In this document: positions 23,162 through 64,000 of the stretch, piece after piece
Layout of the letters: the number at the start of each line of letters is the position of its first letter
Numbering within the stretch: the stretch's first letter is position 1
Assembly: GCA_963920705.1 (NCBI GenBank)
Contig: OY987226.1
Location: 34,425,199-34,489,198, forward strand
Reading direction: 5' to 3'
Origin: Odiellus spinosus
Lineage: Eukaryota; Arthropoda; Arachnida; Opiliones; Phalangiidae
Length of the DNA: 64,000 bases
Made by a program: the position numbers and the translations under genes
Notes under the pieces: generated by a model
What the model was told of the DNA's origin: nothing
The model's database searches: none
Seen by the model: the letters and a program-made list of their open reading frames with translations, nothing else

Positions 23162-25550
23162 GTAAGTACCTTTTATTCCCTTTAATAACCACAGGCAAAT
23201 ATGTTGAACAGAACTTTTGAAAAATATATATATATATATTTTGCACTTTAAAATTGTTTCTCATTGATCCCGTTGATAATTCAAAGTAGATAGCTTGTTG
23301 GGCCAAAAATATAAAATTTTCAGAATTTTTGAAGGTGACGCTCGAGTCTCAAATTTGGCCCCCATGAGAACCCCAAAAATTGAAATTATCTCGTTCTGTA
23401 ATTTTTTCCCAGTATTTTAGTCTTCAAATTCGTATTCAGCGCCTCTTTTTCGTCTGTTATACGATTTTTTATTCATTTAAGTCTATTAATTCTCAAGAAA
23501 TTAGAGAAAACCCAATTTGAAAATTTAAAATCCAAATTTATGCAAAAAAATTATAACTTGAGAAATAATTTTTCCTGGAATCTGAAACTTTGTAAATACT
23601 AGTTTCTTCCGCTTCTAGATCCGTAGAAAAATAATGCTTGAAATTTAAAATTAAGCCCATTTTCCTCAAGTTGAATTCGTACGGATTGACCCTCTTTCTT
23701 AATTCGGGTATTTTTTGTCAATTTTGTATCAGTTTTGAATCGACTTAATTTCGATTCATTTTTATAATGATTAGGTTTAAATTGTAGTGTAAGATCTCGT
23801 CTGTATCGTCGTACGTTAACATTTCCCCTAATTTGACCCATTTTGGTCTATTTTCATTTTTGAACACGACTCCAAACTTATTAGACAGCGTGACTCAAGT
23901 AAATAACAAACCTTTTTCGAAAACTATAACTTCTAGTAGAAATATTAACCTAGTATCAACTCTGCTTAAAAATAAAAGTAGATGCTAAAGCTATTAAAAT
24001 TTTCTCTATTTTGGACGTTATCGGTAAATTTGCGGAAGCGCGAGTGCTTTTTTAGGCTAGCCCACGTCCGTATATTAAGCCTTCGGATTAAATTGTAGTT
24101 TAAGTTCTCTGTCTCGTCGCTCGATTAGATTCCTCAAGAATTTGAGGCCATTTTTATTATTTAACTTTGTATATCCGGTACGTTCTAGTTCTTAATTCGG
24201 ATCTTTTGGTCAATTTTAAATCAGTTTTAAATCGACTTAGATTTGTTTAGTTTTTATAATCATTAGGTTTAAATTGTAGTTTTGGATCTCGTCCGTTTCG
24301 TCGCGCGTTAATATTCCTCGTAATTTGAGAGATATTTTGGTCTATTTTAATTTTTAAAAGCGACTCTAAACCATTGGACAGTATGACGGAGAAATACAGG
24401 GTGGAACAGATAACAAAACTCAATAGCTTCTATGGGAAAAAATTTCAATGGGATTTTATCATTGAGCGCGTGCTATCAAAATTAATTTTTCACGTCTGGC
24501 GCGTGTTTATAGCACGCGCTCAATGTTAAAATCCCATTGAAATTTTTTCCCATAGAAGCTATTGAGTTTTGTTATCTGTTCCACCTGTATAAGTTTAGTC
24601 ACTTTCAAAAATGAAAATAGACCAAAACAAGTCAAATTATGGGAAATGTTAACGCGCGACGAGATCTTAAACTACAATTTAAACCTAATCATTATAAAAA
24701 GTAATCAAAATTAAGTCAATTTCAAACTGATTTAAAATTTACCAAATATCTGAATTAAGAACCTACCATATGTCCTAAGTTAATCAAAATGGTCTAAATT
24801 TTAGACGAGTCTAATCAGAAAACGAGAGGAGATATTTAACTACAATTTAAACATAATCATCATTAAATTTAATCAAAACTAAACCCGTTTATATTTAATA
24901 AAAAAAAATGCTAAAATCTTCTCCGTCGTACTGACTAATATCATTTTTTCATTAACTATAAAAGCGTTTAAATTTGTTTAAATTTAATTATGATTAGGTT
25001 TAAATTGTAGTTTAATATCGCCTCCGCGTCGTCATACGCGCACATCCTCAAGAATTTAGACAATTCCTTATTTAAATCAGTTTATCCGGTACTTTCTTAA
25101 TTCAGATATTTTTGTCAATTTTAAATCAGTTTTAAATCGATTTAATTTTGATTAATTTAATAATAATTAGGTTTAAATTGTAGTTTAAGATCTCGTCTGT
25201 CTCGTCGCGGGTTAACATTCCCCCTCATTTGACCTATTTTGGTCTATTTTAATCTTTCAACGAGATTCCAAACAATTGAAACTTATTAGACTGTATGATG
25301 GAGAATATATACTATTCAAGTTTAGATCTGTTCAAAAATTAGAATAGACCAAAATAGGTGATATTTATGGGGAATGTTAATGCACGGTGAGACGGACGAG
25401 ATCTTACACTGCAATTTAAACCTAATCATAATTAAATTGAATCAAAATAAAGTCGATTTAAAACTGATTTAAAATTGACAAAAACATCTGAATTACGGAA
25501 CGTACCGGGTAAAGAAGGTAAAATAAATCCAAACAAAATTACAATTTCTA
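23162..25550. repeat. Diverged direct and inverted repeat units
   Basis: From 23230 to 23680 the dispersed unit seen at 21640 recurs. From 23680 to 25510 an approximately 300-bp unit ('gattaggtttaaattgtagt', 'gatctcgtc…', 'gtcaattttaaatcagttttaaatcgactt') occurs several times: forward near 23680, 24180 and 25000, inverted near 24600 and 25380. A related diverged copy lies at 48840-49140. No coding capacity was seen. Confidence 0.75.
24397..24587. mobile_element. 191-bp foldback element with TA target duplication
   Basis: The ends CAGGGTGGAACAGATAAC and GTTATCTGTTCCACCTG are nearly complementary, and the complementarity continues for about 80 bp per arm to 'gcgcgtgctat'. TA flanks both sides, as in Tc1/mariner-type short non-autonomous elements. 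It interrupts the diverged repeat units. Confidence 0.85.
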
Positions 25551-28500
25551 TGAAAATTTAACCAATCATGGTTCATTCTACGGGGAATGACGCCATATAG
25601 TCCATTTTATTTAGAAAAGGTCACGTGATGAGTTATAAATTTTTAAAAATATGTAAATTTTCCATTGAATCCCATGTTATATAGATTTATGGTATGTCTG
25701 CGCATATATTACAATTCCTCGGTTTTGGCTCATGGTAACTCTATGAAAATCTAACCAATCATGGTTCATTCTATGGGGAATGACGCCATATAGTCCATTT
25801 TATTTAGAAAAGGTCACGTGATGAGTTATAAATTTTTAAAAATATGTAAATTTTCCATTGAATCCCATGTTATATAGATTTATGGTATGTCTGCGCATAT
25901 ATTACAATTCCTCGGTTTTGGCTCATGGTAACTCTATGAAAATCTAACCAATCATGGTTCATTCTATGAGGAATGACGTCATATTGTCCATTTTATTTAG
26001 AAAAGGTCACGTGATGAGTTATAAATTTTTAAAAATATGTAAATTTTCCATTGAATCCCATGTTATAGAGATTTGTCGTGTGCCTGCACATATATTTCAA
26101 TTTCTCGGTTTTGGCTCATGGTAACTCTATGAAAATCTAACCAATCTAGGTTCATTCTATGGGTAATGACGTCATATTGCCCATTTAATTTAGAAAAGGT
26201 CACGTGATGAGTTATAAATTTTTAAAAATATGTAAATTTTGCATTCAAGCCCATGTTATAGAGATTTATCGTATGCCTGCACATATATTTCAATTTCTTG
26301 GTTTTGGCTTATCCTAATTCTTTGAAAATCTAACCAATTATGGTTCATGCTATGGGGAATGACGTCATATTGCCCATTTTATTTAGAAAAGGTCACGTGA
26401 TGAGTTATAAATTTTTAAAAATATGTAAATTTTCCATTGAATCCCATGTTATAGAGATTTATCGTATGCCTGCACATATATTTCAATTTCTTGGTTTTGG
26501 CTTATCCTAATTCTTTGAAAATCTAACCAATTATGGTTTATACTATGGGGAATGACGTCATATTGCCCATTTTATTTAGAAAAGGTCACGTGATGAGTTA
26601 TAAATTTTTAAAAATATGTAAATTTTCCATTGAATCCCATGTTATAGAGATTTGTCGTGTGCCTGCACATATATTTCAATTTCTTGGTTTTGACTCATGG
26701 TAACTCTATGAAAATCTAACCAATCATGGTTCATTGTATGGGGAATGACGTCATATAGTCCATTTTATTTAGAAAAGGTCACGTGATGAGTTATAAATTT
26801 TTAAAAATATGTAAATTTTCCATTGAATCCCATGTTATATAGATTTATGGTATGTCTGCGCATATATTACAATTCCTCGGTTTTGGCTCATGGTAACTCT
26901 ATGAAAATCTAACCAATCATGGTTCATTCTATGAGGAATGACGTCATATTGTCCATTTTATTTAGAAAAGGTCACGTGATGAGTTATGAATTTTTAAAAA
27001 TATGTAAATTTCCCATTGAAGCCCATGTTATAGATATTTATCGTATGCCTGCACATATATTTCAATTTCTTGGTTTTGGCTCATGGTAACTCTATGAAAA
27101 TCTAACCAATCATGGTTCATACTATGGGGAATGACGTCATATTGCCCATTTTATTTAGAAAAGGTCACGTGATGAGCTATTAATTTTTAAAAATATGTAA
27201 ATTTTCCATTGAAGCCCATGTTATAGAGATTTATCGTATGCCTGCACATATATTTCAATTTCTTGGTTTTGGCTTATCCTAATTCTTTGAAAATCTAACC
27301 AATCATGGTTCATACTATGGGGAATGACGTCATATTGCCCATTTTATTTAGAAAAGGTCACGTGATGAGTTATAAATTTTTAAAAATATGTAAATTTTCC
27401 ATTGAATCCCATGTTATAGAGATTTATCGTATGCCTGCACATATATTTCAATTTCTTGATTTTGGCTTATCCTAATTCTTTGAAAATCTAACCAATCATG
27501 GTTCATACTATGGGGAATGACGCCATATAGTCCATTTTATTTAGAAAAGGTCACGTGATGAGTTATAAATTTTAAAAAATATGTAAATTTTCCATTGAAT
27601 CCCATGTTATATAGATTTATGGTATGTCTGCGCATATATTACAATTCCTCGGTTTTGGCTCATGGTAACTCTATGAAAATCTAACCAATCATGGTTCATA
27701 CTATGGGGAATGACGTCATATTGCCCATTTTATTTAGAAACAGTCACGTGATGAGCTATTAATTTTTAAAAATATGTAAATTTTCCATTGAAGCCCATGT
27801 TATAGAGATTTATCGTATGCCTGCACATATATTTCAATTTCTTGGTTTTGGCTTATCCTAATTCTTTGAAAATCTAACCAATCATGGTTCATACTATGGG
27901 GAATGACGTCATATTGCCCATTTTATTTAGAAAAGGTCACGTGATGAGTTATAAATTTTTAAAAATATGTAAATTTTCCATTGAATCCCATGTTATAGAG
28001 ATTTGTCGTGTGCCTGCACATATATTTCAATTTCTTGGTTTTGGCTTATCCTAATTCTTTGAAAATCTAACCAATCATGTTTCATACTATGGGGAATGAC
28101 GTCATATTGCCCATTTTATTTAGAAAAGGTCACGTGATGAGTTATAAATTTTTAAAAATATGTAAATTTTCCATTGAATCCCATGTTATATAGATTTATG
28201 GTATGTCTGCGCATATATTACAATTCCTCGGTTTTGGCTCATTGTAACTCTATGAAAATCTAACCAATCATGGTTCATACTATGGGGAATGACGTCATAT
28301 TGCCCATTTTATTTAGAAACAGTCACGTGATGAGCTATTAATTTTTAAAAATATGTAAATTTTCCATTGAAGCCCATGTTATAGAGATTTATCGTATGCC
28401 TGCACATATATTTCAATTTCTTGGTTTTGGCTTATCCTAATTCTTTGAAAATCTAACCAATCATGGTTCATACTATGGGGAATGACGTCATATTGCCCAT

Positions 28501-28800
28501 TTTATTTAGAAAAGGTCACGTGATGAGTTATAAATTTTTAAAAATATGTAAATTTTCCATTGAATCCCATGTTATAGAGATTTGTCGTGTGCCTGCACAT
28601 ATATTTCAATTTCTTGGTTTTGGCTCATGGTAACTCTATGAAAATCTAACCAATCATGGTTCATTCTATGGGGAATGACGTCATATTGCCCATTTAATTT
28701 AGAAAAGGTCACGTGATGAGTTATAAATTTTTAAAAATATGTCAATTTTGCATTCAAGCCCATGTTATAGAGATTTATGGTATGCCTTCTCATATATTAT
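25551..28800. repeat. 193-bp satellite, block 2 (17 monomers)
   Basis: The motif GAATGACG recurs at a mean spacing of 193 bp from about 25584 to 28672. Two sequence types differ at linked positions: 'catatagtcc … ggtatgtctgcgcatatattacaattcc' and 'catattgccc … cgtatgcctgcacatatatttcaatttc'. They are interspersed, with the first type recurring every three to four monomers in the right half, so higher-order organisation is likely. A tail to 28800 leads to the LTR element. Confidence 0.95.
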
Positions 28801-28815
28801 AACAACGACAGAGCT

Positions 28816-29197
28816 TGTAACGGGGTGCCACTTACCTATAGAAGGAAAGTCCCTGGGTTCTCTTTGATCTAGATTTCTTCATGGTTAAACTCTAAGTGAG
28901 CTCTACCCCTTCATCTTACTCTGGAGGAAGACTTGGGTTAGAGGGCGCTACAAGCAACGGCCTGGATCATGTGATAAGACGTTAATCAGGAAGGATATAT
29001 AAAGAAGACCGCCAGGATTCTAGGGGGCTGGTCGGAGGCTACGAGCGAGGGATCTCCTGTTACTCATTTTTAATATTAAACTTATTTTCTTGTATATTTT
29101 TAAATCGGGAGTACTTAAATAAATCAGTGATGTTAAACAGGTTAAACGGCGCCACATTTATTTAGAGTTTTAGCTTATAGAGAACCGGCCAGCTACA
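28816..29197 (+). repeat. 5' LTR
   Basis: 382 bp, TG…CA ends. It holds a TATA box TATATAAAG at 28996-29004 and a polyadenylation signal AATAAA at 29118-29123. No difference from the 3' LTR was found by eye. Confidence 0.95.
28996..29004 (+). promoter_or_regulatory. LTR TATA box
   Basis: TATATAAAG lies in the middle of the LTR, repeated at 37950-37958 in the 3' copy. Transcription of the element probably starts about 25-30 bp downstream; inferred from position only. Confidence 0.6.
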
Positions 29198-29199
29198 AT

Positions 29200-29217
29200 T
29201 GGAGGCTCCGCCGAGAA
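29200..29217 (+). promoter_or_regulatory. Primer-binding site
   Basis: Two bases after the LTR the sequence TGGAGGCTCCGCCGAGAA begins with the TGG that pairs with a tRNA CCA end. A tRNA ending GGAGCCTCCA would fit; I cannot name it with confidence. Confidence 0.65.
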
Positions 29218-30152
29218 CGCGTTTTTAATCGCGATTTTTTTACCCGAAATTTTTTTTTTTTTTTCTTCTCTCTCGTTTGCGTTTTTATTTCCGTTCCGGT
29301 TTCTTTTTATTTGGTGGGGGTGTGCGTTGCCCTTCTTCGATTTAAGACTTCGTTTTGTGTGAACTATTTGCTACGTGTTTAAGCTTCCAGTGTTCAAGTG
29401 TGTTCAGGACTCAGATTTGGATTTTCCAGACGATATTTGCCAGTGTATTCAGGTAGTCGGCTCACGCGTTTGTGAGGAATCTGGGGAGTCTTTGAGTGAG
29501 AAGAGCGGACCCCAAATCAACGATCGTGGAGGCCTTAATGCGCTCATTTCATTGATTTTCCTGGATTTCTTCACTAGAAAGGAGCTTGCTCCTTCTTAGG
29601 GCCGACATATTCCTGGACAATTTTCAAACTGTTCCAGTGAGGTGCAAGTTACTGATTGAAGAATACCAACCATCAATTCTCGGTACCAGTGACTGAACAC
29701 GGAAAAATATCTTGAGTACCCTTTTCGATTTTTTTTTTATACACTTATAGTTGTCGATAGAGTACTGGTATTTCGATACTATACACGTGTTGAGTTGTTT
29801 GTCCTCTGGTAGAGAAGGTTTAGTCCTTGGATTAGTGGACCTCGGTGTTATTTAGGGTATTATTCTTTCTTTTTGGCTTGACATTTGGAGGTGAGGCGGC
29901 GACAATTTCGAAGAATAGATAAATTATAAGTTTTTTTATATAGTTAAAAATTTTGTCAAGAGATTTGGAGGTAATACACTTGATCCTTTGCCTTTTTAGA
30001 GTTTTTATTTATATTTAATTTAATCTTTTTCTAGTTTTTATTTTTATTTAAAGTACGGTAAAGTTTCGGGTGTTAAGCCTTTGTTTGATATTGACTATTA
30101 CGAGTTGTCACATTTTGTCAGTCCTAGTTTAGGGTACAGTTTTCTGGTTAAT
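29218..30152 (+). other. Untranslated leader of the LTR element
   Basis: No convincing ORF is present; a 74-codon open stretch at 29375-29599 has no known relative. Two near-identical potential splice donors occur at 29890/29891 (TTTGGAG|GTGAGG) and 29970/29971 (TTTGGAG|GTAATA). Either could supply the donor for a spliced mRNA of the downstream ORF. Confidence 0.5.
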
Positions 30153-32138
30153 ATGCTGGGACTTTCGAGTTTAGATGCTGGTCTTTTGGTGGGAATTATT
30201 AGTTTTGTTTTAATTATTTATGGTTGTTTCTTTTCTGGTTTATACCACCATACAGACCCCATTAGACCTGTTGGTGTAATTCCCAATAGTTATCGAGTCC
30301 CAGAGTCATCTTCTCATACCCCTGTACCACCATCCCCTCGTCGGACTCCTTTGAGACCAAGATTTCGGAGTTTATCAGACCACACGGATAAGAATGAAGC
30401 CATGAGAGAACCTGGTATTAGTAGATTAGCCCAGGAAAAATTGATAGAATCTATTTCAAACAATGTTTGTAGTAGAATTAATAATCGATTAGAGAACACC
30501 GAACAAGAGATCAGGTTATTAACGGAGGCATCGAAAAATACACGTACATATAACCCTTTTTCTCATTATATAGCAACTAATACTAGTCTGAGGGATAATA
30601 CTATAGAGTTAGAGTCTCAAACGCAGGCAGATTTAGCTCGAGAACGTACTAAAATTCTTCAGGATCAAGAGTTATTGGAACGACAAACTGCCCAATTACT
30701 TAGAGAGAAGGCTATTATTGATCAGGAACAATTAGAAGGTCAACAACAATTGATACAGGAACGACGTACACTTAATCAGGAGATTTTACAATTTGAAGAA
30801 AGAGTCCAGGATTATTTTAGGGATAGATATAGACAGTTGACATCAGTAGAGGTAAATCCTACTACACCAATTTTAATGGAAACTTCAAATAGGGTAGACC
30901 TTTCTAATGAACCTCCAAATGCTGAACCTGAACATGAACCTGAGGTTTTTCATCCGGTAACAAATATGAATGGTTTAGTACCTAGTACTATTCCTACGGC
31001 AGTCACGGTATCTCCGGTAGTATCTTCAGTAATTCCTCCGATAAGTCATTCTGCATCCCCTTTACCTGGAGTAATTTATGCGCAGGCTAATAGTTTACCA
31101 AAGACATCAGGAAATTTGGGGGTTGCTAGTGGCTTGGCACCAGTTATGTCATTAGGAACTTCTATGTTGGGAAGTTCAAATCCTCCCGTAAATATAACTG
31201 GGATTAACCCTTATTCCAGTCCTAATTTGGGTCCCCAGGTTATCTCTCCTAGTGTGCCATTAGTAATACCTAGTTCTTTACCATCACCACCTGTAGGGGC
31301 TTTGAATGCTGCTGGTGGTAATTATCAACCAAAGACAGGAGCTCATTATGTCTTGAGTAAACATTTTCAAATGCCTGTATTTTCTGGTGAACCTAATGAT
31401 GACCCAAAGTTATTTATACAAAGGTTAGCGGAATATATACAATTTCATCAGTTGACCGAGGATACGTTACACTTATTTTTACCCTTGGTGTTTTTGAAAA
31501 GTGCCCAGATATGGATTATGGACCTAATGTATAGGCATAATCGTCGAATAACCTGGCAAATCTTTCAAACTGAATTTGTTACGCAGTTTTTATCAAGTGA
31601 GAGAGAGAGTACCCTGCAAATGGCTCTGTTTGGGGCTCAAGCCCAGGAGAATGATGATCTTTGGGAATTTCGTCATAAAATAGTTAAATTGAATTGGTCT
31701 CTTCTGGAACCATTGGACGAAACCAGATTGGTACGTCTATTGGTTTCAAAAATGCCATCATCTGTTAAAAAATTACTTCCTAGGAATACATGTCAGACCT
31801 TAGCACAGTTTGATGGGGAAATTATGAGAATACAAAACGCAAATGATAATCAATCACCCCCTATGGGAATGGTTAGTCAGGGAAGATATGTACCTAGCCA
31901 AAATATAGGAAGACCCGGAAATAATCCAAGTTCCCGGAGTAATTATATGAATCAGGGTAACACAGGGCGTCGAACTACCGGTTCTTCAAACTCTTTTAAC
32001 CCAACATGTTATAGATGTCATATTGTGGGACATACTAGTCGAAATTGTCCAAACCCCCAAGCATCAAGTGCAAACCCCCAGGCTTCAGGTACAAATGTAC
32101 AAAGTTTCCCTTCGGGAAACGAAGTACAAACTCCCTAA
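30153..32138 (+). CDS. gag: Gag of the LTR element
   Basis: Gag is the structural protein that forms the virus-like particle and binds RNA. The first ATG is at 30153, giving 661 residues; the frame stays open upstream, so an earlier non-ATG start is not excluded. From residue 8 to 30 there is a strongly hydrophobic stretch (LLVGIISFVLIIYGCFF) that looks like a membrane segment, unusual for Gag. A long Glu/Gln/Arg-rich coiled coil follows at roughly residues 100-225, then a Ser/Pro-rich linker. A capsid-like retrotransposon Gag region lies at about 405-570 (FSGEPNDDPKLFIQRL…, LWEFRHKIVKLNW). One CCHC zinc knuckle is at 619-632 (CYRCHIVGHTSRNC). It overlaps pol in another frame by about 90 bases. 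Confidence 0.92.
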   Translation: MLGLSSLDAGLLVGIISFVLIIYGCFFSGLYHHTDPIRPVGVIPNSYRVPESSSHTPVPPSPRRTPLRPRFRSLSDHTDKNEAMREPGISRLAQEKLIESISNNVCSRINNRLENTEQEIRLLTEASKNTRTYNPFSHYIATNTSLRDNTIELESQTQADLARERTKILQDQELLERQTAQLLREKAIIDQEQLEGQQQLIQERRTLNQEILQFEERVQDYFRDRYRQLTSVEVNPTTPILMETSNRVDLSNEPPNAEPEHEPEVFHPVTNMNGLVPSTIPTAVTVSPVVSSVIPPISHSASPLPGVIYAQANSLPKTSGNLGVASGLAPVMSLGTSMLGSSNPPVNITGINPYSSPNLGPQVISPSVPLVIPSSLPSPPVGALNAAGGNYQPKTGAHYVLSKHFQMPVFSGEPNDDPKLFIQRLAEYIQFHQLTEDTLHLFLPLVFLKSAQIWIMDLMYRHNRRITWQIFQTEFVTQFLSSERESTLQMALFGAQAQENDDLWEFRHKIVKLNWSLLEPLDETRLVRLLVSKMPSSVKKLLPRNTCQTLAQFDGEIMRIQNANDNQSPPMGMVSQGRYVPSQNIGRPGNNPSSRSNYMNQGNTGRRTTGSSNSFNPTCYRCHIVGHTSRNCPNPQASSANPQASGTNVQSFPSGNEVQTP

Positions 32139-33319
32139 ACGGACCGCAGAGAGTTTGGAATGAACAGGGTCCTACCATTAACTTGAATACGTATCAGTCT
32201 CGAAACACATCTTCATTATTTGGAATCAGGTTGTCTATATGTAATAAGAATTGTACTGCATTTCTTGATTCTGGCGCAGATCAATGTGCTATCTCAGAAA
32301 CTTTTATGAATGAACTAGGGGTATCTAAATTAATGGAACCAAGGGTGGCCCCGATTCATTTGGCAACTACTGGACAAGATAAATCTACAATGGGCTTGAT
32401 TAATCTTGAAATAGATTTAGGACAAGAAATGGGGATTGTTCACGTACAGTTTCATGTGGTCCCAGGTTTGAGACATTCCGTAATTCTTGGAAATGATTTA
32501 ATCCGGGATATGAGAGTAATTATGGATTACGAAACCAAAACATTTTCCTATTGTGGTTTTAGTCTACCATTAGTTAGTTTGGAGTTACATTCCCCTGGGA
32601 CTCAGGTTGGACCTACAGAATCTCAACGCATAGATAGGGATCAACTGACTATTGGAGATGTTTCGCAAACTGAAAAGGAGACTTTAATATCCCTATGTCA
32701 GGAATTTTATCCCTTATTTACAGGAAAACCAGGGAGAACTCACCTAATTAAACACCATATTAGGCTTAAACCAGACACTATTCCGGTTAGTAAACAGCCA
32801 TATGCCCATAGTCCCTTTGTTAATGAAGAAATTGAGAAACAAATTCAGGACCTATTGCGTTCAGGAATGATACGTCCTTCTGAAAGTCCTTGGGCATCCC
32901 CTACCATTATGGTAGATAAAAAAGACGCTAAAAAAGGTGATGGACGAGATCGGCGTATGTGTATAGATCTTACCGCAGTAAATTCAGTGACCATTAATGA
33001 CCCATTCCCTATTCCCAAGATTGACGAAATTATAGATTCTATGGGTAAACCAAATTATATCACGAAATTAGATTTGAAATCTGGATACTGGCAAATAGCC
33101 ATGGCTCCCGGTGATATTGAGAAAACGGCTTTTGTTACTCGGGATGGCAAGTATGAATGGCTGGTAATGCCATTTGGTTTGAAAAATGCACCCTCAAGTT
33201 TTATGCGGTTAATGAATAAAGTCCTGCGATACGCTAGACGTTATGGGGTAGGAGTTTATTTGGACGATATTATTGTTGCTAGTCAAACCTGGGAAGATCA
33301 TCAGGTAGCTACGATACGT
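32045..33319 (+). CDS. pol: Pol, first part: protease and reverse transcriptase
   Basis: The frame has no initiating ATG, as expected for a Gag-Pol fusion reached by frameshifting. An aspartic protease has its active-site LDSGAD at residues 74-79 and the ILGND block at 147-151. The reverse transcriptase follows: KLDLKSGYWQ (residue 341 on, first catalytic Asp 343), MPFGLKNAPSSF, and YLDD at 405-408. The frame matches the family up to about 33310, then runs into unrelated residues and a stop at 33359-33361. The rest of the RT continues in another frame from 33318. One base gained or lost near 33300-33318 would explain the break. Confidence 0.92.
32051..32120 (+). promoter_or_regulatory. Candidate gag-pol -1 frameshift region
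   Basis: Pol lies in the -1 frame relative to gag. In the overlap the heptamer A AAC CCC, read in the gag frame as X XXY YYZ, occurs twice (32051-32057 and 32072-32078). A 7-bp stem GTTTCCC/GGGAAAC with a short loop follows at 32104-32120. The stem is about 25 bases from the nearer heptamer, further than usual, so the site is plausible, not proven. Confidence 0.45.
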
Positions 33320-36089
33320 GTTTTCTCAATTAAAACATGCAGGATTGACATTAAATCTTAGCAAATGTCATTTTGGGGTATCTCAGGTATCTGTTCTGGG
33401 ATATGTTGTTAGCAAACAGGGGGTACAAATTGATCCGGATAAAGTTAAAGCCATTATAGAATTCCCTCGCCCACGCACTATTAAACAAGTATCCTCATTT
33501 CTGGGTATGTGTGGATACCACTCTCGATTTATTCCTCATCTGGCTAATTTGACAGCGCCATTGAATAAATTAAAACGAAAATATAATCGATGGCGTTGGG
33601 GAGAAGAGGAACATAATGCTTTCGAGGAAATAAAATATTTAATTGCTACAGCGGCTATGCTTCAGGTTCCTACTCCTGATGGGAAGTTTATCATCACCAC
33701 GGATGCTAGTGGTAAAGGGATAGGTGGAATTCTAACTCAGATCCAAGGTGATGAGGAAGTTACTCTGGCCTATTTTAGCAAATTACTAACCCCTGCTCAA
33801 TTGAAATATAGTACTCCGGAGCAAGAGGCACTAGCGGTTATTGAAACTGTCCGTAAATTCCGTCATTATATAGAGGGACGGGAGTTTGCTATACTTTCCG
33901 ATCATCAGGCTTTATGTTGGTTACTCAAATTGAAAAATAAAAAGAGCAGGCTGATGAGGTGGGCCTTGGAACTACAGGAATATATGCCTTTTGACATTTT
34001 GCATAAATCGGGGAAAGAAAATATAGTAGCAGATGCATTATCTAGGTGCCCTGTGTCTGATCTTGGTACTGTAAGTCCTAAGGTAGTTGAGGGGGACCAT
34101 TCTGGGGATGTGACACCAATTAATTTGAATGTAATAGAATGTAATCCAGGGTTTAATGCAGGCCAGTTGGATTTTGTAACACTTGCAGAAATAAGGGAGG
34201 CCCAAAAGTCTGATCCTAAATGGATTGATATTAGGTCTAAACTGAATAATAATGAAGCTTCAAGGGTGTATGAAGTGAGAGATGATTTGCTTTATCGCAA
34301 AGCAGAGGGTTTTCAGCCGGCAAAGGTTTTAATCCCGTCTGGTATACTTCCTCGATTACTTCAAACTTATCATGATCACCCCCTATCCGGACACCGTGGT
34401 AGGAGCGCTACTTATATAAAAATCAGGGCTAAATATTATCATCCCCAACTATATATTTTGGTTAAACAGTATGTACAGAATTGTGAGGTCTGCCAACGCT
34501 ATAAGAGTCGGAATACGAAGAAACCTGGGTATATGATACCTTCGTACAAAATTCATCCCGGAGATTTAGTGGGCATAGATATAATGGGCCCACTACCCTG
34601 TACTAAACATCAGAATAGGTTTCTGGTAGTTATAGTAGACTATTTCACTAAGTATACAGAAATATTTCCGGTTCGCAATATTACGGCTATTACTTTATGT
34701 AAAATTCTGTTACAGTATATATCCCGGCATGGCACTATGACAGCAATATTATCTGATAATGGTCCTCAATTCATTTCCTCGTTATGGAAGCAATTATGTC
34801 ATAAATTAAAAATTAAAGTTAAATTCACTTCGCCATATCATCCTCAGGCCAATCTTACTGAACGTATTAACCATATTTTAGGAGAAATTATTAGTATATA
34901 CGTGGGGAATATTCATGGAAAATGGGATGACAATTTATCACTTATTCAATTAGCTATCAACAGCACAATTCATACCTCTACCGGGTTCTCTCCTTTTTAT
35001 TTGAACCATGGATATGAACCAACTTTACCCTGGGATGAACGCGTGTTTGGGGGTATCCCGGATGATTTAGAGGAAGCTGTTAATGAGTATGAACAGGGAC
35101 CACTGCATGAGTGGCAGTTATCTATAGATCTGGCTCATGATATAAATGATTTGGCGAGTGCTAAGCAGAAGTATTTTTATGATCATAATTATTCAGGAAG
35201 TGAACTGGACGTGGGTCAGTTGGTATGGAAACAGGGGCATAGACTGTCTAATGCGGCCGCTAAGTTCTCGGCTAAATTTGTGCCTAGGTGGGAAGGTCCT
35301 TTCCGGGTAGTAGAAAAACTCTCCCCGGTAAATTATGTAATTATGGATTTGAACACTGGATCATTAGCGGGCACATGGCATATTAATGATTTAAAATTCT
35401 ATATCAACACAGCTACTCTGGACACTCAGGAAAGATTGATTCCTCAAGTAGATCCTACTATAGTTATTCCCCCGGTATTAGACGAGGTACCTGTAGCTGA
35501 TCTAGATCAGACATTTGTCTTACCCGCAAGTCGTGTTGACCTCATTACTAAGGATATACCACAAGTAACCCCGGAACCTCAGTTAGTCCTTCCTGCAGAA
35601 CAAAGTTTAGAAATAGCATTGGTTAATAGTGAGCCTCTTCCTTTACATGTCAAGGGTTCAGTTAGTATTATAATAGAAGAACCCTCAAGTGATAGTGAGG
35701 GTGAGGAGGTGCCCCGCTACCCATTACGTTCTAGGGTACGATTTACTAAACCTTTGGTAGTAGAGGAAATTCCCCCACCGGAAATAGTTGATACTAATGC
35801 CAGAATAACCCAGGAAGTAGACAAGGTGGAATCCACGGATCTGTTAATGCTACCATTCTCTTTTGGTTGGCATAGGGAAATAGTTTTCCGTCGTACTCAG
35901 ACATCCCGGATTGGTGATGTCTACTATTATACCCCGGGCCCAGTGGTGGGGAAATTAAGATCTTATAAGGATATTGAATTCTATTTATCACAACATCCGC
36001 TTCAGGCTAAAAATTTGTCTCGAATTAATTTTTCTATGAATCCTTCGCCTATAGCTTACCCTCCTTTGGAAACAGTTCGACATAATTAG
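33318..36089 (+). CDS. pol: Pol, second part: RT thumb, RNase H, integrase and MBD-like tail
   Basis: The open frame resumes at the RT connection (FSQLKHAGL…KCHFG). RNase H has TTDAS (Asp129), the SDHQAL block (Asp195) and VADALSR (Asp239). The integrase zinc domain shows His354/His359 and the Cys pair NCEVC at 389-392. The catalytic triad is Asp421 (GIDIMGPLP), Asp480 (LSDNGPQF) and Glu515. A GPY/F-type end (RWEGPFRV) is at 657-664. A long acidic, Pro-rich linker follows (about 700-840), then a methyl-CpG-binding-like domain at 846-912. The stop is TAG at 36087-36089. The tail of about 260 residues beyond the integrase core is longer than a usual Gypsy Pol, and the position is that of the chromodomain in chromoviruses. 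Confidence 0.93.
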   Translation: MFSQLKHAGLTLNLSKCHFGVSQVSVLGYVVSKQGVQIDPDKVKAIIEFPRPRTIKQVSSFLGMCGYHSRFIPHLANLTAPLNKLKRKYNRWRWGEEEHNAFEEIKYLIATAAMLQVPTPDGKFIITTDASGKGIGGILTQIQGDEEVTLAYFSKLLTPAQLKYSTPEQEALAVIETVRKFRHYIEGREFAILSDHQALCWLLKLKNKKSRLMRWALELQEYMPFDILHKSGKENIVADALSRCPVSDLGTVSPKVVEGDHSGDVTPINLNVIECNPGFNAGQLDFVTLAEIREAQKSDPKWIDIRSKLNNNEASRVYEVRDDLLYRKAEGFQPAKVLIPSGILPRLLQTYHDHPLSGHRGRSATYIKIRAKYYHPQLYILVKQYVQNCEVCQRYKSRNTKKPGYMIPSYKIHPGDLVGIDIMGPLPCTKHQNRFLVVIVDYFTKYTEIFPVRNITAITLCKILLQYISRHGTMTAILSDNGPQFISSLWKQLCHKLKIKVKFTSPYHPQANLTERINHILGEIISIYVGNIHGKWDDNLSLIQLAINSTIHTSTGFSPFYLNHGYEPTLPWDERVFGGIPDDLEEAVNEYEQGPLHEWQLSIDLAHDINDLASAKQKYFYDHNYSGSELDVGQLVWKQGHRLSNAAAKFSAKFVPRWEGPFRVVEKLSPVNYVIMDLNTGSLAGTWHINDLKFYINTATLDTQERLIPQVDPTIVIPPVLDEVPVADLDQTFVLPASRVDLITKDIPQVTPEPQLVLPAEQSLEIALVNSEPLPLHVKGSVSIIIEEPSSDSEGEEVPRYPLRSRVRFTKPLVVEEIPPPEIVDTNARITQEVDKVESTDLLMLPFSFGWHREIVFRRTQTSRIGDVYYYTPGPVVGKLRSYKDIEFYLSQHPLQAKNLSRINFSMNPSPIAYPPLETVRHN
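35853..36053 (+). other. Methyl-CpG-binding-like domain at the C-terminus of Pol
   Basis: Residues 846-912 of the second pol frame follow the MBD pattern: GWHREIVFRR, then a short loop, GDVYYYTPG, GKLRS, DIEFYL and a final NFSM. Against animal MBD proteins, Trp851, the first DNA-reading arginine (Arg858), Asp867, Tyr869 and the second arginine (Arg881 of KLRS) are all present; the first loop is one residue shorter and the second two longer. In MBD1/2 and MeCP2 these arginines and the Asp/Tyr contact methylated CpG. Binding by this copy is inferred. A TAM-type variant of the fold is the main alternative. Confidence 0.8.
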
Positions 36090-36110
36090 TTTAAGAGTGG
36101 ATGTTACTAC

Positions 36111-36146
36111 GGTTTTTTTTTTCTTTTGGTTTTTGTTTCTTATTAG
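36111..36146 (+). promoter_or_regulatory. Splice-acceptor-like site directly before the third ORF
   Basis: An almost uninterrupted pyrimidine tract of about 30 bases ends in TTATTAG, and the next base is the A of the ATG of the downstream ORF. The frame begins 57 bp after the pol stop. This arrangement suggests that the ORF is expressed from a spliced subgenomic RNA, as env is in retroviruses and errantiviruses. Confidence 0.55.
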
Positions 36147-37418
36147 ATGCAACGTCTTCCAGGGGATAGAATGGTTAAGCGGATCCCTCGTATTCCGGTG
36201 AGTCAGAGGATTATTATGAACCATGAACGTATTGTTCCACTCCCTCCGGAACCTGTTTCGGCGGAAGCCGCATGCCAATGGTTAAAGCACCGCACAGCAG
36301 AGGATTACGCAGCGTATGTTAGTAGGCATGGGTGTCACCCACCTTTAGCATCGTATATGGAACCACCGGCAGTCTCGCCAGTTAAAAGCCGTTCTGATTC
36401 GGAGGCTGTTTCCGGACGGGACAAAATGGAATCGGACATGGCATCTAGCGTGGCCACGGTGGTGTCGGAGGTGGCTTCGGCTGGTAGTCTTAACGATTCG
36501 ACTGTCACTGCTGCAAGTGTTATTATTGATCCCGAGGTTACGTTGGGACTTACCTCCTTCTTGGTAGAGGTTCAATCAGGTGGCGCTTTGGCAGTGCAAG
36601 ACCAGGATAACCCGTTTATACCGTACGTGGATGTGTACTTTTCACTCCGGTCGTTTCTTTCCAAGCACCACGTGCATACAAGTTTTTATGAGTTCGTCGT
36701 GAACAATAGCGAGTTATTTCCGGGAAATTTTGAAGCAGGCATTACCCATCTTGGGGTGGTTCCGGAGGAACTCTCCAGGTTTTATTTATTAAAGCATGGA
36801 AAAATGGAAGGTATCTTCGTTATGGTCGGGATTCCCCCTATGTTTGCGCGTGCATTCGTCGAACGTCATCTGGAGGACCAGGTTCGCCAAGCTCTGGCTT
36901 ATCGGAATGTTCGTGGGGTGGGAGCAATTGGACTTGACTATGTGAAGGCGTTGGTTTCATGTCCAAGAGACATACAGCTGCAGGCTTTTTGCGCGCAGGT
37001 TTGCCTTGCTCGGAGTTTTGGCCAGCCTATTTTTGTCAAATGCAGGGACGCATACTCCGATTGTATAGCGCTTTTACGCAGGGAACTCCCATCTGACTAT
37101 CCGGTGATATTGTTGACTTATACGGGTAGTCTGGTATTTACGCGTGAATTTCTGGAACATTCTTCGAATGTATATTTTTCGTTTTCTTCCCTGGTGGGGG
37201 TTTTTAGTTTAACGGGTCCCCGGGATTCCTTGGTGGAGATTCCCCTTTCTAGAATTTTGGTTGAGTCAAATTCCCCTGTGTTAAAAGGTACTCGGGAAAT
37301 AGCGACCTCGGGAATAATTTTTACAACCCTTGAAATAATGGCCAAGATTAGGGGTATGCCTTTTTCGGATTTTGCTCAAGTAGTTCGAGAGAATACCTAC
37401 CGCATTCTGCGTATTTGA
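36147..37418 (+). CDS. TatD-like metal-hydrolase fold protein with substituted active site (third ORF of LTR element)
   Basis: 423 residues from an ATG to TGA. Residues 1-155 are low-complexity and not recognised. From about 157 to 423 the order of TatD-family blocks is clear: DVYFSL (162), VGIPP (227), GAIGLDY (259), QPIFVKCRDAY (293), LLTYTGS (322), IPLSRILVESNSP (365), ending in the C-terminal RENTYRIL helix. TatD enzymes are metal-dependent 3' exonucleases. Here the usual ligands are replaced: the DxHxHL histidines by Tyr164 and Ser166, the Glu of GEIGLD by Ala260, the His of IHCRDA by Lys298, the His of HCFTG by Leu323, and the Asp of ETDSP by Asn375. Catalysis is unlikely; a structural or nucleic-acid-binding role is inferred. 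It occupies the env position of the element. Confidence 0.8.
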   Translation: MQRLPGDRMVKRIPRIPVSQRIIMNHERIVPLPPEPVSAEAACQWLKHRTAEDYAAYVSRHGCHPPLASYMEPPAVSPVKSRSDSEAVSGRDKMESDMASSVATVVSEVASAGSLNDSTVTAASVIIDPEVTLGLTSFLVEVQSGGALAVQDQDNPFIPYVDVYFSLRSFLSKHHVHTSFYEFVVNNSELFPGNFEAGITHLGVVPEELSRFYLLKHGKMEGIFVMVGIPPMFARAFVERHLEDQVRQALAYRNVRGVGAIGLDYVKALVSCPRDIQLQAFCAQVCLARSFGQPIFVKCRDAYSDCIALLRRELPSDYPVILLTYTGSLVFTREFLEHSSNVYFSFSSLVGVFSLTGPRDSLVEIPLSRILVESNSPVLKGTREIATSGIIFTTLEIMAKIRGMPFSDFAQVVRENTYRILRI

Positions 37419-37754
37419 GGGATAAGTTAAGCGGCGTTAGAGGAGAGTAGCGGATTTTGGTTGCCGTGTTTGGTGTGGATTTATTTTTTTTTTTTTGTTT
37501 TTTTGTATTTTTTTTTTTTTTTTTTTCTTCAGGTTATAGTTTTCCTGACTGGGTCATTGCGCTTCGTTTTTTGGGGTTTTTTTTTGGACATACGGGTACA
37601 AAATCCACTTTATTTTTGTTGTTTACTTTTTGTTTTTTGTATTGCCCTCGTGTCGGGTTATATTTTTCTCTCTTTTGTTTAATTAAAGTGTTGTTCTTCC
37701 TGGTTTTTGTTTTTTTGCTTTTGTCTTCTCTTTTCCCTAGGGTCTTTCCTTTTT
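37419..37754 (+). other. T-rich 3' untranslated stretch of the LTR element
   Basis: Long T runs (37481-37526) and low-complexity T/C-rich DNA lie between the third ORF and the polypurine tract. Open frames here are phenylalanine-rich and not credible. Confidence 0.6.
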
Positions 37755-37769
37755 TACGGGGTGGGGTAT
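37755..37769 (+). promoter_or_regulatory. Polypurine tract
   Basis: The purine-rich ACGGGGTGGGGTAT immediately precedes the 3' LTR and would prime plus-strand DNA synthesis. Confidence 0.65.
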
Positions 37770-38151
37770 TGTAACGGGGTGCCACTTACCTATAGAAGGA
37801 AAGTCCCTGGGTTCTCTTTGATCTAGATTTCTTCATGGTTAAACTCTAAGTGAGCTCTACCCCTTCATCTTACTCTGGAGGAAGACTTGGGTTAGAGGGC
37901 GCTACAAGCAACGGCCTGGATCATGTGATAAGACGTTAATCAGGAAGGATATATAAAGAAGACCGCCAGGATTCTAGGGGGCTGGTCGGAGGCTACGAGC
38001 GAGGGATCTCCTGTTACTCATTTTTAATATTAAACTTATTTTCTTGTATATTTTTAAATCGGGAGTACTTAAATAAATCAGTGATGTTAAACAGGTTAAA
38101 CGGCGCCACATTTATTTAGAGTTTTAGCTTATAGAGAACCGGCCAGCTACA
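37770..38151 (+). repeat. 3' LTR
   Basis: Same length as the 5' LTR and no difference seen by eye. It is followed by AGCT, the right copy of the target duplication. Confidence 0.95.
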
Positions 38152-38745
38152 AGCTCAGGCAATCCAGTCACTACGCAGTGGACTAATGTACTCTTGTTTT
38201 ATATTATAGCTTTGGACACTACTAGTGGAATTTCAACAACCTAGGAGCCAGTGGATGCTTTATGAAGACGCAAGAGAAAGCTTAATGTCAAAATATCTCA
38301 ACTCGGCTTAAATCTAAGTGTTCAAAATCTCCAGCACAAACCTGAAAAACGTTTTTTCCACCTTATCGCCAACCACGGTCGACTCTTCAAGCGCTAAGAA
38401 ACATCATTGGGAAGTGTTTTCTCTCTTATCGGACGTTACAAATTGGCATCAATACTGAGATTACAACATAACACAGTCAGAGGTCAGGCAATTCAGTCAC
38501 TACGCAGTGGACTAATGTACTCTTGTACATAGGTTTAGTATGATAGGGTTTAATTTGTGCCTTAGTTAATTCTTTTAGGGACTTTTTATTCAATTTGGGA
38601 TTGGAAAATGGTTCCTAAATCCTTAATCTTAACTTAGAATCATTCCTACTTGCACGTCAATCACCTTACAGACCTCTAATTAGTTTAATTTGTTGACTAG
38701 TTGCGAAAACAAATTTACTTCCAAAAGCTTCGCCATATTTCTATC
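38152..38745. repeat. Dispersed repeats with CAGTCACTACGCAGTGGACT
   Basis: The phrase 'cagtcactacgcagtggact', which can form a small hairpin (CACT…AGTG), occurs at 38166 and 38492 and again near 49273. The longer context (…atgtactcttg…gaagacgcaaga…) is shared between 38160-38285 and 49266-49402. From 38550 to 38700 lies a copy of the 'caccttacagacctctaatt' unit found near 47410 and in tandem at 54750-55210. No coding capacity was seen. Confidence 0.7.
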
Positions 38746-39330
38746 AATATATGACCAATCATAGTTCATTATATGGGGAATGAGGCTTTATCCTTCATTC
38801 GATCTAAAAATGATCGTAGACTGAGTTATGAATTTTCACATAGGAAACCATGTTATTTAGATTTAGTGCTTGTCTTCACATTTTTCTTGATAACTATGTT
38901 ACAGCTTGCTATATACCGATCAATATTTGACCAATCATAGTTCATTATGTGTGGAATGATTTTATATTCTTCATTTGATCTAGAAATGATCGTAGACTGA
39001 GTTATGAATTTTCAAAAATTAGGTTTATTCACATAGGAAACCATGCTATTTAGATTTGATATTTGTATTTGCATTTTGCTTGATAACTATGTTATGGGTT
39101 GCCATATTTCTATCAATATTTTACCAATCATAGTTCATTATGTGGGAAATGAGGTTATATCCTTCATTTGATCTAGAAATAATTGTACAATGAGTTATCA
39201 ATTTTCAAAAATTAGGTTTATTCACATAGGAAACCATGTTTTATTAGATTTGGTACTTGTCTTCGCATTTTTCTTGATAACTATGTTACAGCTCGCCTTA
39301 TTTCTATTAATATTTGACCAATCATAGATT
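38746..39330. repeat. Diverged satellite related to the 193-bp repeat, block 1
   Basis: Three monomers share the frame 'accaatcatagttcattatgtggggaatga' with the main satellite, but then read 'tcatttgatctagaaatgatcgta' and 'ggaaaccatgtt'. They lack the TGACGTCA and TCACGTGA sites. The same subfamily recurs at 55385-55805. Confidence 0.8.
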
Positions 39331-39925
39331 TATTGTATGCCTGCACATATATTTAAATTTCTTGGTTTTGGCTTATCCTAATTCTTTGAAAATCTAACCA
39401 ATCATGGTTCATTCTATGGGGAATGACGTGATATTGCCCATTTTATTTGGAAAAGGTCACGTGATGAGTTATAAATTTTCCATTGAAGCCCATGTTATAG
39501 AGATTTATCGTATGCCTGCACATATATTTCAATTTCTTGGTTTTGGCTTATCCTAATTCTTTGAAAATCTAACCAATCATGGTTCATACTATGGGGAATG
39601 ACGTCATATTGTCCATTTTATTAAGAAAAGGTCACGTGATGAGCTATGAATTTTTAAAAATATGTAAATTTTCCATTGAAGCCCATGTTATAGAGGTTTA
39701 TCGTATGCCTGCACATATATTTCAATTTCTTGGTTTTGGCTTATCCTAATTCTTTGAGAATCTAACCAATCATGGTTCATACTATGGGGAATGACGTCAT
39801 ATTGCCCATTTTATTTAGAAAAGGTCACGTGATGAGTTATAAATTTTTAAAAATATGTAAATTTTCCATTAAAGTCCATGTTATAGACATTAATCAAATT
39901 TTTAACATTGGATGTTTAATTTTCT
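39331..39925. repeat. 193-bp satellite, block 3 (about 3 monomers)
   Basis: Main-type monomers, with GAATGACG at about 39420, 39596 and 39789. As in block 1, the block ends just before a splice acceptor and the MPQPP exon. Confidence 0.9.
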
Positions 39926-60650: not shown

Positions 60651-60814
60651 TATCGAAAAAGTGCAGAAAATTTTGTCAGAAAAGGCAGAAAGAAAGAAAG
60701 TCAGAAAGAACAGAAAATTTTGTCAGAAAAAAGTGCGAAAAGTAAGTTAAGTCAGAAAGTAAGAAAGTAAGAAAAAAGTAAGAAAAGTAAGAAAAGTCAG
60801 ATAGTTAGAATACG

Positions 60815-60955
60815 TTAGGATAGGTTAGCTTAGGTTAGCTTAGGTTAGCATAGGTTAGCTTAGGTTAGCTTAGGTTAGCATAGGTTAGCTTAGGTTAGCA
60901 TAGGTTAGCTTAGGTTAGCTAAGAATAGGTAAGAATAGCTAAGGAATTAGGTTGT
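60815..60955. repeat. Telomere-variant repeats (TTAGG with TTAGC)
   Basis: Units alternate TTAGG and TTAGC(T/A), giving a 10-bp period, then become degenerate just before the pure telomere. Confidence 0.9.
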
Positions 60956-63900
60956 GTTAGGTTAGGTTAGGTTAGGTTAGGTTAGGTTAGGTTAGGTTAG
61001 GTTAGGTTAGGTTAGGTTAGGTTAGGTTAGGTTAGGTTAGGTTAGGTTAGGTTAGGTTAGGTTAGGTTAGGTTAGGTTAGGTTAGGTTAGGTTAGGTTAG
61101 GTTAGGTTAGGTTAGGTTAGGTTAGGTTAGGTTAGGTTAGGTTAGGTTAGGTTAGGTTAGGTTAGGTTAGGTTAGGTTAGGTTAGGTTAGGTTAGGTTAG
61201 GTTAGGTTAGGTTAGGTTAGGTTAGGTTAGGTTAGGTTAGGTTAGGTTAGGTTAGGTTAGGTTAGGTTAGGTTAGGTTAGGTTAGGTTAGGTTAGGTTAG
61301 GTTAGGTTAGGTTAGGTTAGGTTAGGTTAGGTTAGGTTAGGTTAGGTTAGGTTAGGTTAGGTTAGGTTAGGTTAGGTTAGGTTAGGTTAGGTTAGGTTAG
61401 GTTAGGTTAGGTTAGGTTAGGTTAGGTTAGGTTAGGTTAGGTTAGGTTAGGTTAGGTTAGGTTAGGTTAGGTTAGGTTAGGTTAGGTTAGGTTAGGTTAG
61501 GTTAGGTTAGGTTAGGTTAGGTTAGGTTAGGTTAGGTTAGGTTAGGTTAGGTTAGGTTAGGTTAGGTTAGGTTAGGTTAGGTTAGGTTAGGTTAGGTTAG
61601 GTTAGGTTAGGTTAGGTTAGGTTAGGTTAGGTTAGGTTAGGTTAGGTTAGGTTAGGTTAGGTTAGGTTAGGTTAGGTTAGGTTAGGTTAGGTTAGGTTAG
61701 GTTAGGTTAGGTTAGGTTAGGTTAGGTTAGGTTAGGTTAGGTTAGGTTAGGTTAGGTTAGGTTAGGTTAGGTTAGGTTAGGTTAGGTTAGGTTAGGTTAG
61801 GTTAGGTTAGGTTAGGTTAGGTTAGGTTAGGTTAGGTTAGGTTAGGTTAGGTTAGGTTAGGTTAGGTTAGGTTAGGTTAGGTTAGGTTAGGTTAGGTTAG
61901 GTTAGGTTAGGTTAGGTTAGGTTAGGTTAGGTTAGGTTAGGTTAGGTTAGGTTAGGTTAGGTTAGGTTAGGTTAGGTTAGGTTAGGTTAGGTTAGGTTAG
62001 GTTAGGTTAGGTTAGGTTAGGTTAGGTTAGGTTAGGTTAGGTTAGGTTAGGTTAGGTTAGGTTAGGTTAGGTTAGGTTAGGTTAGGTTAGGTTAGGTTAG
62101 GTTAGGTTAGGTTAGGTTAGGTTAGGTTAGGTTAGGTTAGGTTAGGTTAGGTTAGGTTAGGTTAGGTTAGGTTAGGTTAGGTTAGGTTAGGTTAGGTTAG
62201 GTTAGGTTAGGTTAGGTTAGGTTAGGTTAGGTTAGGTTAGGTTAGGTTAGGTTAGGTTAGGTTAGGTTAGGTTAGGTTAGGTTAGGTTAGGTTAGGTTAG
62301 GTTAGGTTAGGTTAGGTTAGGTTAGGTTAGGTTAGGTTAGGTTAGGTTAGGTTAGGTTAGGTTAGGTTAGGTTAGGTTAGGTTAGGTTAGGTTAGGTTAG
62401 GTTAGGTTAGGTTAGGTTAGGTTAGGTTAGGTTAGGTTAGGTTAGGTTAGGTTAGGTTAGGTTAGGTTAGGTTAGGTTAGGTTAGGTTAGGTTAGGTTAG
62501 GTTAGGTTAGGTTAGGTTAGGTTAGGTTAGGTTAGGTTAGGTTAGGTTAGGTTAGGTTAGGTTAGGTTAGGTTAGGTTAGGTTAGGTTAGGTTAGGTTAG
62601 GTTAGGTTAGGTTAGGTTAGGTTAGGTTAGGTTAGGTTAGGTTAGGTTAGGTTAGGTTAGGTTAGGTTAGGTTAGGTTAGGTTAGGTTAGGTTAGGTTAG
62701 GTTAGGTTAGGTTAGGTTAGGTTAGGTTAGGTTAGGTTAGGTTAGGTTAGGTTAGGTTAGGTTAGGTTAGGTTAGGTTAGGTTAGGTTAGGTTAGGTTAG
62801 GTTAGGTTAGGTTAGGTTAGGTTAGGTTAGGTTAGGTTAGGTTAGGTTAGGTTAGGTTAGGTTAGGTTAGGTTAGGTTAGGTTAGGTTAGGTTAGGTTAG
62901 GTTAGGTTAGGTTAGGTTAGGTTAGGTTAGGTTAGGTTAGGTTAGGTTAGGTTAGGTTAGGTTAGGTTAGGTTAGGTTAGGTTAGGTTAGGTTAGGTTAG
63001 GTTAGGTTAGGTTAGGTTAGGTTAGGTTAGGTTAGGTTAGGTTAGGTTAGGTTAGGTTAGGTTAGGTTAGGTTAGGTTAGGTTAGGTTAGGTTAGGTTAG
63101 GTTAGGTTAGGTTAGGTTAGGTTAGGTTAGGTTAGGTTAGGTTAGGTTAGGTTAGGTTAGGTTAGGTTAGGTTAGGTTAGGTTAGGTTAGGTTAGGTTAG
63201 GTTAGGTTAGGTTAGGTTAGGTTAGGTTAGGTTAGGTTAGGTTAGGTTAGGTTAGGTTAGGTTAGGTTAGGTTAGGTTAGGTTAGGTTAGGTTAGGTTAG
63301 GTTAGGTTAGGTTAGGTTAGGTTAGGTTAGGTTAGGTTAGGTTAGGTTAGGTTAGGTTAGGTTAGGTTAGGTTAGGTTAGGTTAGGTTAGGTTAGGTTAG
63401 GTTAGGTTAGGTTAGGTTAGGTTAGGTTAGGTTAGGTTAGGTTAGGTTAGGTTAGGTTAGGTTAGGTTAGGTTAGGTTAGGTTAGGTTAGGTTAGGTTAG
63501 GTTAGGTTAGGTTAGGTTAGGTTAGGTTAGGTTAGGTTAGGTTAGGTTAGGTTAGGTTAGGTTAGGTTAGGTTAGGTTAGGTTAGGTTAGGTTAGGTTAG
63601 GTTAGGTTAGGTTAGGTTAGGTTAGGTTAGGTTAGGTTAGGTTAGGTTAGGTTAGGTTAGGTTAGGTTAGGTTAGGTTAGGTTAGGTTAGGTTAGGTTAG
63701 GTTAGGTTAGGTTAGGTTAGGTTAGGTTAGGTTAGGTTAGGTTAGGTTAGGTTAGGTTAGGTTAGGTTAGGTTAGGTTAGGTTAGGTTAGGTTAGGTTAG
63801 GTTAGGTTAGGTTAGGTTAGGTTAGGTTAGGTTAGGTTAGGTTAGGTTAGGTTAGGTTAGGTTAGGTTAGGTTAGGTTAGGTTAGGTTAGGTTAGGTTAG

Positions 63901-64000
63901 GTTAGGTTAGGTTAGGTTAGGTTAGGTTAGGTTAGGTTAGGTTAGGTTAGGTTAGGTTAGGTTAGGTTAGGTTAGGTTAGGTTAGGTTAGGTTAGGTTAG
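60956..64000 (+). repeat. Telomere, (TTAGG)n
   Basis: About 609 uninterrupted pentamers run to the end of the window. TTAGG is the ancestral arthropod telomere repeat. No non-LTR retrotransposon (such as SART or TRAS) is seen inside this part. Confidence 0.98.

Follow-up and report, generated by a model that had tools for sequence, protein, structure and literature searches.

Methyl-CpG-binding domain (MBD) proteins are host readers that are linked with silencing, and the arthropod retrotransposons that captured such a domain are reportedly Copia elements, in a centipede and a spider. The capture of an MBD by an arthropod retrotransposon family has been published (de Mendoza, Pflueger and Lister 2019, Genome Res 29:1277). 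Among the Ty3/Gypsy elements, chromoviruses carry a chromodomain at the C-terminus of the integrase, and KnitGypsy-Dnmt3 of Klebsormidium nitens is a Gypsy Pol with a captured DNA-methylation gene under purifying selection (PMC5890265).

The element analyzed here is found in a window of 64,000 nucleotides (the whole stretch of DNA that was analyzed) from the harvestman Odiellus spinosus. It shares with the Copia-MBD elements, which are present in this genome too, an arthropod host and an integrase-linked MBD with reading residues; however, it is a Ty3/Gypsy element, its MBD lies at the very end of Pol behind the GPF module and a long linker, and this MBD has its own C-terminal tail and scores nearest to BAZ2 rather than to MeCP2 or MBD2/3. 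With the chromoviruses it shares the superfamily and the place of the reader domain, whereas the reader itself is an MBD, and no chromodomain model at the integrase end occurs among the Pfam matches of the window ORF at E up to 10. KnitGypsy-Dnmt3 likewise combines a Gypsy Pol with a gene of the methylation machinery under purifying selection, but it captured a methyltransferase, which is a writer, while the window element carries a reader (PMC5890265). No MBD in a Gypsy integrase was found in the literature searched, although the 2019 Copia-MBD paper may mention Gypsy, and a protein search with Pol residues 640-923 returned no match at E 1e-3 among 1896 candidates. Within that literature, a Ty3/Gypsy integrase with an MBD tail is new beside the already known Copia-MBD elements.

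Structure of the Element

The window closes a contig of 34.5 Mb in a genome of 443 Mb, and it ends in a (TTAGG)n array (60814-64000, 3.2 kb), which we take to be a telomere of the arthropod type. The mitochondrial contig of the genome has ND2, COX1 and COX2; its ND2 shares 71% identity with that of Oligolophus tienmushanensis and 58-59% with those of Phalangium opilio and Opilio parietinus, as expected of a harvestman that is probably a member of the Phalangiidae. The whole LTR retrotransposon, delimited by its LTR pair and the target duplication, occupies 28816-38151 on the + strand, to which all of its features belong. The 5′ LTR (28816-29197) and the 3′ LTR (37770-38151) are 382 bp long and identical, and the target-site duplication AGCT is found at 28812-28815 and 38152-38155. 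Since the LTRs are identical over 382 bp and the 4-bp duplication is present, the element is a young insertion. The Gag ORF (30081-32138, 685 aa as listed) has a zinc knuckle towards its end, with zf-CCHC and Retrotrans_gag matches below the cut-off. The protease and the initial part of the reverse transcriptase (RT) are encoded at 32045-33361, as seen in the ORF list and in Pfam matches; the Pol frame of the window copy is broken inside the RT, and near relatives are open over ~1350 aa. The ORF of 923 aa that follows (33318-36089) contains the end of the RT, RNaseH, the integrase, the linker and the MBD, with the H2C2 and rve core of the integrase at 34335-34844 (Pfam) and its C-terminal SH3/GPF module at 35214-35402 (SH3_Tf2-1 below the cut-off, Integrase_p58_C at the cut-off). 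The Pfam order of Pol (protease, RT, RNaseH, integrase), together with the LTRs and the short target duplication, is that of Ty3/Gypsy; the Copia order, in which the integrase stands before the RT, is not seen, as the RT precedes the integrase.

The Methyl-CpG-Binding Domain at the End of Pol

The integrase tail of this element carries an MBD that is under purifying selection, is inherited together with the integrase and conserves its reading residues. As the original prediction held, Pol ends in this domain: PF01429 matches residues 846-908 of the whole 923-aa ORF (E 8.4e-8, 32.2 bits) and matches the Pol tail alone at E 2.2e-9 and 37.3 bits, over the curated cut-off (gathering score) of 21, and it was found in all 11 members of alignment A1. 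The domain and its conserved tail, residues 843-923, are located at 35844-36086. The predicted place behind the GPF end, like that of a chromodomain, is right in its order, but a linker of ~145 residues (35403-35843) intervenes between the two. The numbering given for R858, R881, Asp867 and Tyr869 is correct on the translation, and R858, D867, Y869 and R881 align with four reading positions of MeCP2, whose reading residues we take to be R111, D121, Y123, R133 and S134.

At these five MeCP2 places, R, D, Y, R and S occur in 25, 24, 25, 24 and 24 of the 25 Gypsy rows, respectively. The first four residues (R-D-Y-R) are found together in 23 of these 25 rows, though the rows are only about one third alike at the lowest, and they are complete in 17 of 20 Copia rows, of which the eight that lie beyond the 12 scanned Copia ORFs were labelled Copia, here and in the tree, by sequence likeness. 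Short pieces (L018, L030), broken copies (L061, L064) and Copia-like sequences (L051, L055) were left out of the residue alignment. A BAZ2-like exon of the host (L029) has R, E, C, R and N at the same five places. The AlphaFold model of the single MBD sequence reached a pLDDT of 41.

The dN/dS ratios were calculated by NG86 for 20 chosen, overlapping pairs and were used where dS was above 0 and under 1.5. Conservation of the domain, for which the original prediction had looked to dN/dS, is borne out by purifying selection on the MBD (0.09-0.29, 12 pairs); the ratios were 0.04-0.10 for the integrase core (13 pairs), 0.18-0.44 for the faster evolving linker (six pairs) and 0.10-0.20 for the TatD domain of the third ORF (three pairs). 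The MBD and integrase distances among 20 copies correlate at r 0.90, and none of 2000 permutations was as high. Among the window copy, L009, L010, L011, L020 and L021, the synonymous distances of the integrase, MBD and TatD parts diverge strongly within pairs, with the window copy and L009 separated by 0.06 in the integrase and 1.12 in TatD. Because the parts of one pair have such unequal distances, the copies look like mosaics, as if copies of the lineage recombined.

Distribution in the Harvestman Genome

The element is one member of a diverse Ty3/Gypsy lineage in which the MBD follows the GPF module and linker. The Pol-tail search of the host genome gave at least 150 matches, and the PF01429 search gave at least 150 over the cut-off among 415 candidates, with host genes and Copia included. 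All 20 Gypsy loci that were fetched have the MBD, with integrase-core identities from 98% down to about 44%, but these loci are no independent evidence, since they were picked by their match to the Pol tail. The independent test was a genome search that used only the integrase core; it yielded 135 scored matches from 2125 candidates. Among the matches listed, an MBD lies within 3 kb downstream in at least 86 of these 135, so that a one-off occurrence in the window is rejected, as it is by the many genome matches. By integrase identity, the MBD was found, among the matches listed, in 13/13 (≥90%), 36/39 (70-89%), 3/6 (57-69%), 1/17 (49-56%) and 33/60 (40-48%).

Of the 49 integrase matches that had no MBD among the matches listed, seven were read, and five of them do have the domain, in agreement with the expectation that sister copies keep it. 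L059 and L060 carry an MBD with Pfam scores of 16.8 bits (under the cut-off) and 31.2 bits, respectively, which contradicts the apparent lack of the MBD among integrases of 49-56% identity (1/17 among the matches listed). L061, L062 and L064 carry it by a profile built from these MBDs, the frames of L061 and L064 being broken and the Pfam score of L062 being 16.3, under the cut-off, while in L063 and L065 the MBD was not settled within the piece read. Absence was judged only among the matches listed and therefore means little.

The window copy sits at the edge of a subtelomeric array of a 193-bp satellite, which is present in the window at 25547-28798 and 38835-39895. A 141-bp array borders L010 and L011, at a different phase in each, but not L009. 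Altogether, the 3′ end was read in four members of the window's family, and three of these lie beside satellites. These neighbourhoods are only suggestive of satellite targeting. The MBD-Gypsy matches cluster on C1, C2 and C4, in chromosome regions that LINEs partly share. Regions delimited by the Gypsy matches themselves held 30/37 (C1), 17/19 (C2) and 12/12 (C4) of the Gypsy-MBD matches, once five C1 entries that were second pieces of neighbouring matches had been removed by hand. The same regions held 8/18 (C1), 10/12 (C2) and 2/6 (C4) of the matches to the endonuclease PF14529, which we take to mark LINEs. Because the data under test also defined the regions, the Fisher p of 0.0007 is no valid test. 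Clustering as evidence of targeting is weakened by this LINE control.

Origin of the Gypsy and Copia Domains

Copia elements of the same genome (L031-L048) carry an MBD after the integrase SH3, and many of them are among the best PF01429 scorers. Out of 12 Copia ORFs scanned, RVT_2 lies behind the MBD in ten, while in L033 and L044 a Copia-type integrase SH3 and rve stand ahead of it. The profile of the Gypsy MBDs scores best against BAZ2B (3.1e-9) and BAZ2A (7.7e-8), with MBD2 at only 5e-4, whereas one Copia MBD scores 1.1e-11 with MeCP2, 6e-11 with MBD3 and 0.0086 with BAZ2B. The tree unites the 22 Gypsy rows (93/91, not starred) and puts them on the same side as BAZ2 and the SETDB1-like sequence, whereas the Copia rows fall together with MeCP2 and MBD2. 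By the AU test, a gypsy+copia grouping (p 0.30) and a gypsy+BAZ2 grouping (p 0.25) are both compatible with the data. Host-type MBD exons include the BAZ2-like L029 (BAZ2B E 4.2e-31), L053, which is presumably SETDB1-like, and the MBD2-like L054. As the Gypsy MBDs score nearest to BAZ2A/B and the Copia MBD nearest to MeCP2, the two are likely to be separate captures. BAZ2A/B, the closest relatives with a solved structure, are, to our knowledge, not classical methyl-CpG readers.

CpG Decay and DNA Methylation

Two DNA methylase matches were obtained from the host genome (L049, L050), which, by their motifs, we take to be DNMT1-like and DNMT2-like, respectively. Between Gypsy copies, transitions at CpG were 1.40 times those at other C/G (0.72-2.14 in single pairs) and transversions 2.05 times, and between Copia copies CpG transitions were 1.16 times those at other C/G. 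The satellite showed CpG transitions at 0/84, against 29/756 elsewhere. The observed/expected ratio of CpG was 1.12-1.26 for the window sequence that flanks the element on both sides. The element body had a ratio of 0.76, equal to its GpC value, and the satellite one of 0.72, with values from 0.56 to 1.03 among the Gypsy loci. Three host-gene loci that were read gave 0.71-0.89, as gene-body methylation might produce, although this proves nothing. Neither the copy comparison nor the CpG ratios give a clear sign of methylation in the Gypsy elements, the Copia elements or the satellite, and CpG decay as proof of methylation was not found. Heavy germline methylation of the elements is not visible, and weak methylation is compatible with these values.

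Proposed Function of the Integrase Tail

The explanation that we prefer, at somewhat better than even chances, is a reader tail that would tether the integration complex on chromosomal DNA. The MBD of the integrase tail would bind chromosomal DNA and hold the integration complex at chromatin bearing the mark, as the chromodomain of the chromoviruses does, and the same job has been proposed for the MBD of arthropod Copia elements. Methyl-CpG is taken as the bound mark because the reading residues point to it, and, judged from these residues, the Gypsy MBD probably binds methylated CpG. A role in integration is favoured because the MBD sits at the integrase tail in Gypsy, matching its place in Copia, and we lean slightly towards the idea that the domain steers integration, which would make it the MBD counterpart of the chromodomain. 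The DNA methylase matches of the host genome also speak for this explanation. Weighing against it are the likeness to BAZ2A/B, the CpG comparisons, the chromosome regions partly shared with LINEs and the 49 of 135 integrase matches with no MBD among the matches listed.

The domain could instead be an anchor for chromatin or nucleic acid that does not read methylation, a BAZ2-like module that would keep the integration complex on chromatin by binding a chromatin protein, RNA or DNA. This is unlikely but deserves some weight, given the BAZ2B and BAZ2A profile matches, the position of the Gypsy rows on the BAZ2 side of the tree and the lack of a clear sign of methylated elements in CpG decay; against it, almost every Gypsy row retains the reading residues, whereas E and C stand in place of D and Y in the BAZ2 exon of the host. 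It is rather improbable that the MBD, instead of guiding site choice, serves to shield the methylated DNA of the element itself or interferes with silencing by competing with the MBD proteins of the host: the same domain data would serve this reading and several host-type MBD exons exist, but the integrase-tail position in Gypsy, matching the Copia place, suits integration better. A chance similarity or a decaying relic, to which the broken RT frame of the window copy might point, is highly improbable and is rejected by the PF01429 score over the curated cut-off, the dN/dS ratios, the residue conservation and the open frames of 1300-1700 aa in the relatives.

Under the preferred reading of a tail that tethers integration, with both Gypsy and Copia carrying an MBD on the integrase, methylation reading would be a recurrent way of choosing insertion sites, comparable to the chromodomain, and a host with both MBD-bearing classes in many copies makes the question testable. 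A wider reading, which we put forward tentatively and at less than even chances, is that the integrases of two unrelated retrotransposon superfamilies acquired tails from different host MBDs within a single arachnid. The Gypsy MBD would then derive from a reader of the BAZ2 type and would possess, perhaps by regaining it, the complete methyl-CpG reading set. A large Gypsy lineage, as an MBD counterpart of the chromoviruses, would pick its sites by this domain, and in one branch a conserved pseudo-nuclease of the TatD type would have joined as a third protein.

The Third ORF

The third ORF (36147-37418, 423 aa) matches PF01026 at E 1.9e-31, with the domain located at 36669-37409, and its best protein match is named TATDN2, at 31% identity. 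The model (pLDDT 61.7) has the TatD fold, with 4p5u as the best Foldseek match (E 2.6e-15). A TatD ORF is present in 12 of the 20 Gypsy loci (L009-L019 and L022) and was not found in the rest (L020, L021 and L023-L028); L020 and L021 are without it though their Pol DNA is 89-90% like that of L019. All copies that span the active-site Glu and Asp have other residues there, the HxH is seen in the window only, and one His is kept in L013 and L015-L018 but not in the window, according to the list of TatD metal ligands that we assumed for these columns. Domain and fold are thus those of the TatD nucleases and the metal ligands are not: ORF3 has its fold in common with the TATDN2-like proteins, but is encoded by a retrotransposon and has no catalytic Glu/Asp. 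ORF3 is probably a binding protein derived from a TATDN2-like nuclease. TATDN2 is reported to resolve R-loops (PMC12754012). With its catalytic Glu/Asp lost and its dN/dS low, ORF3 looks like a pseudo-nuclease that one branch of the lineage has retained. In L059, which represents another branch, the place of TatD behind the MBD-bearing Pol is taken by an ORF in which a CCHC zinc-knuckle-like motif was recognized by eye (reverse strand, starting near 840).
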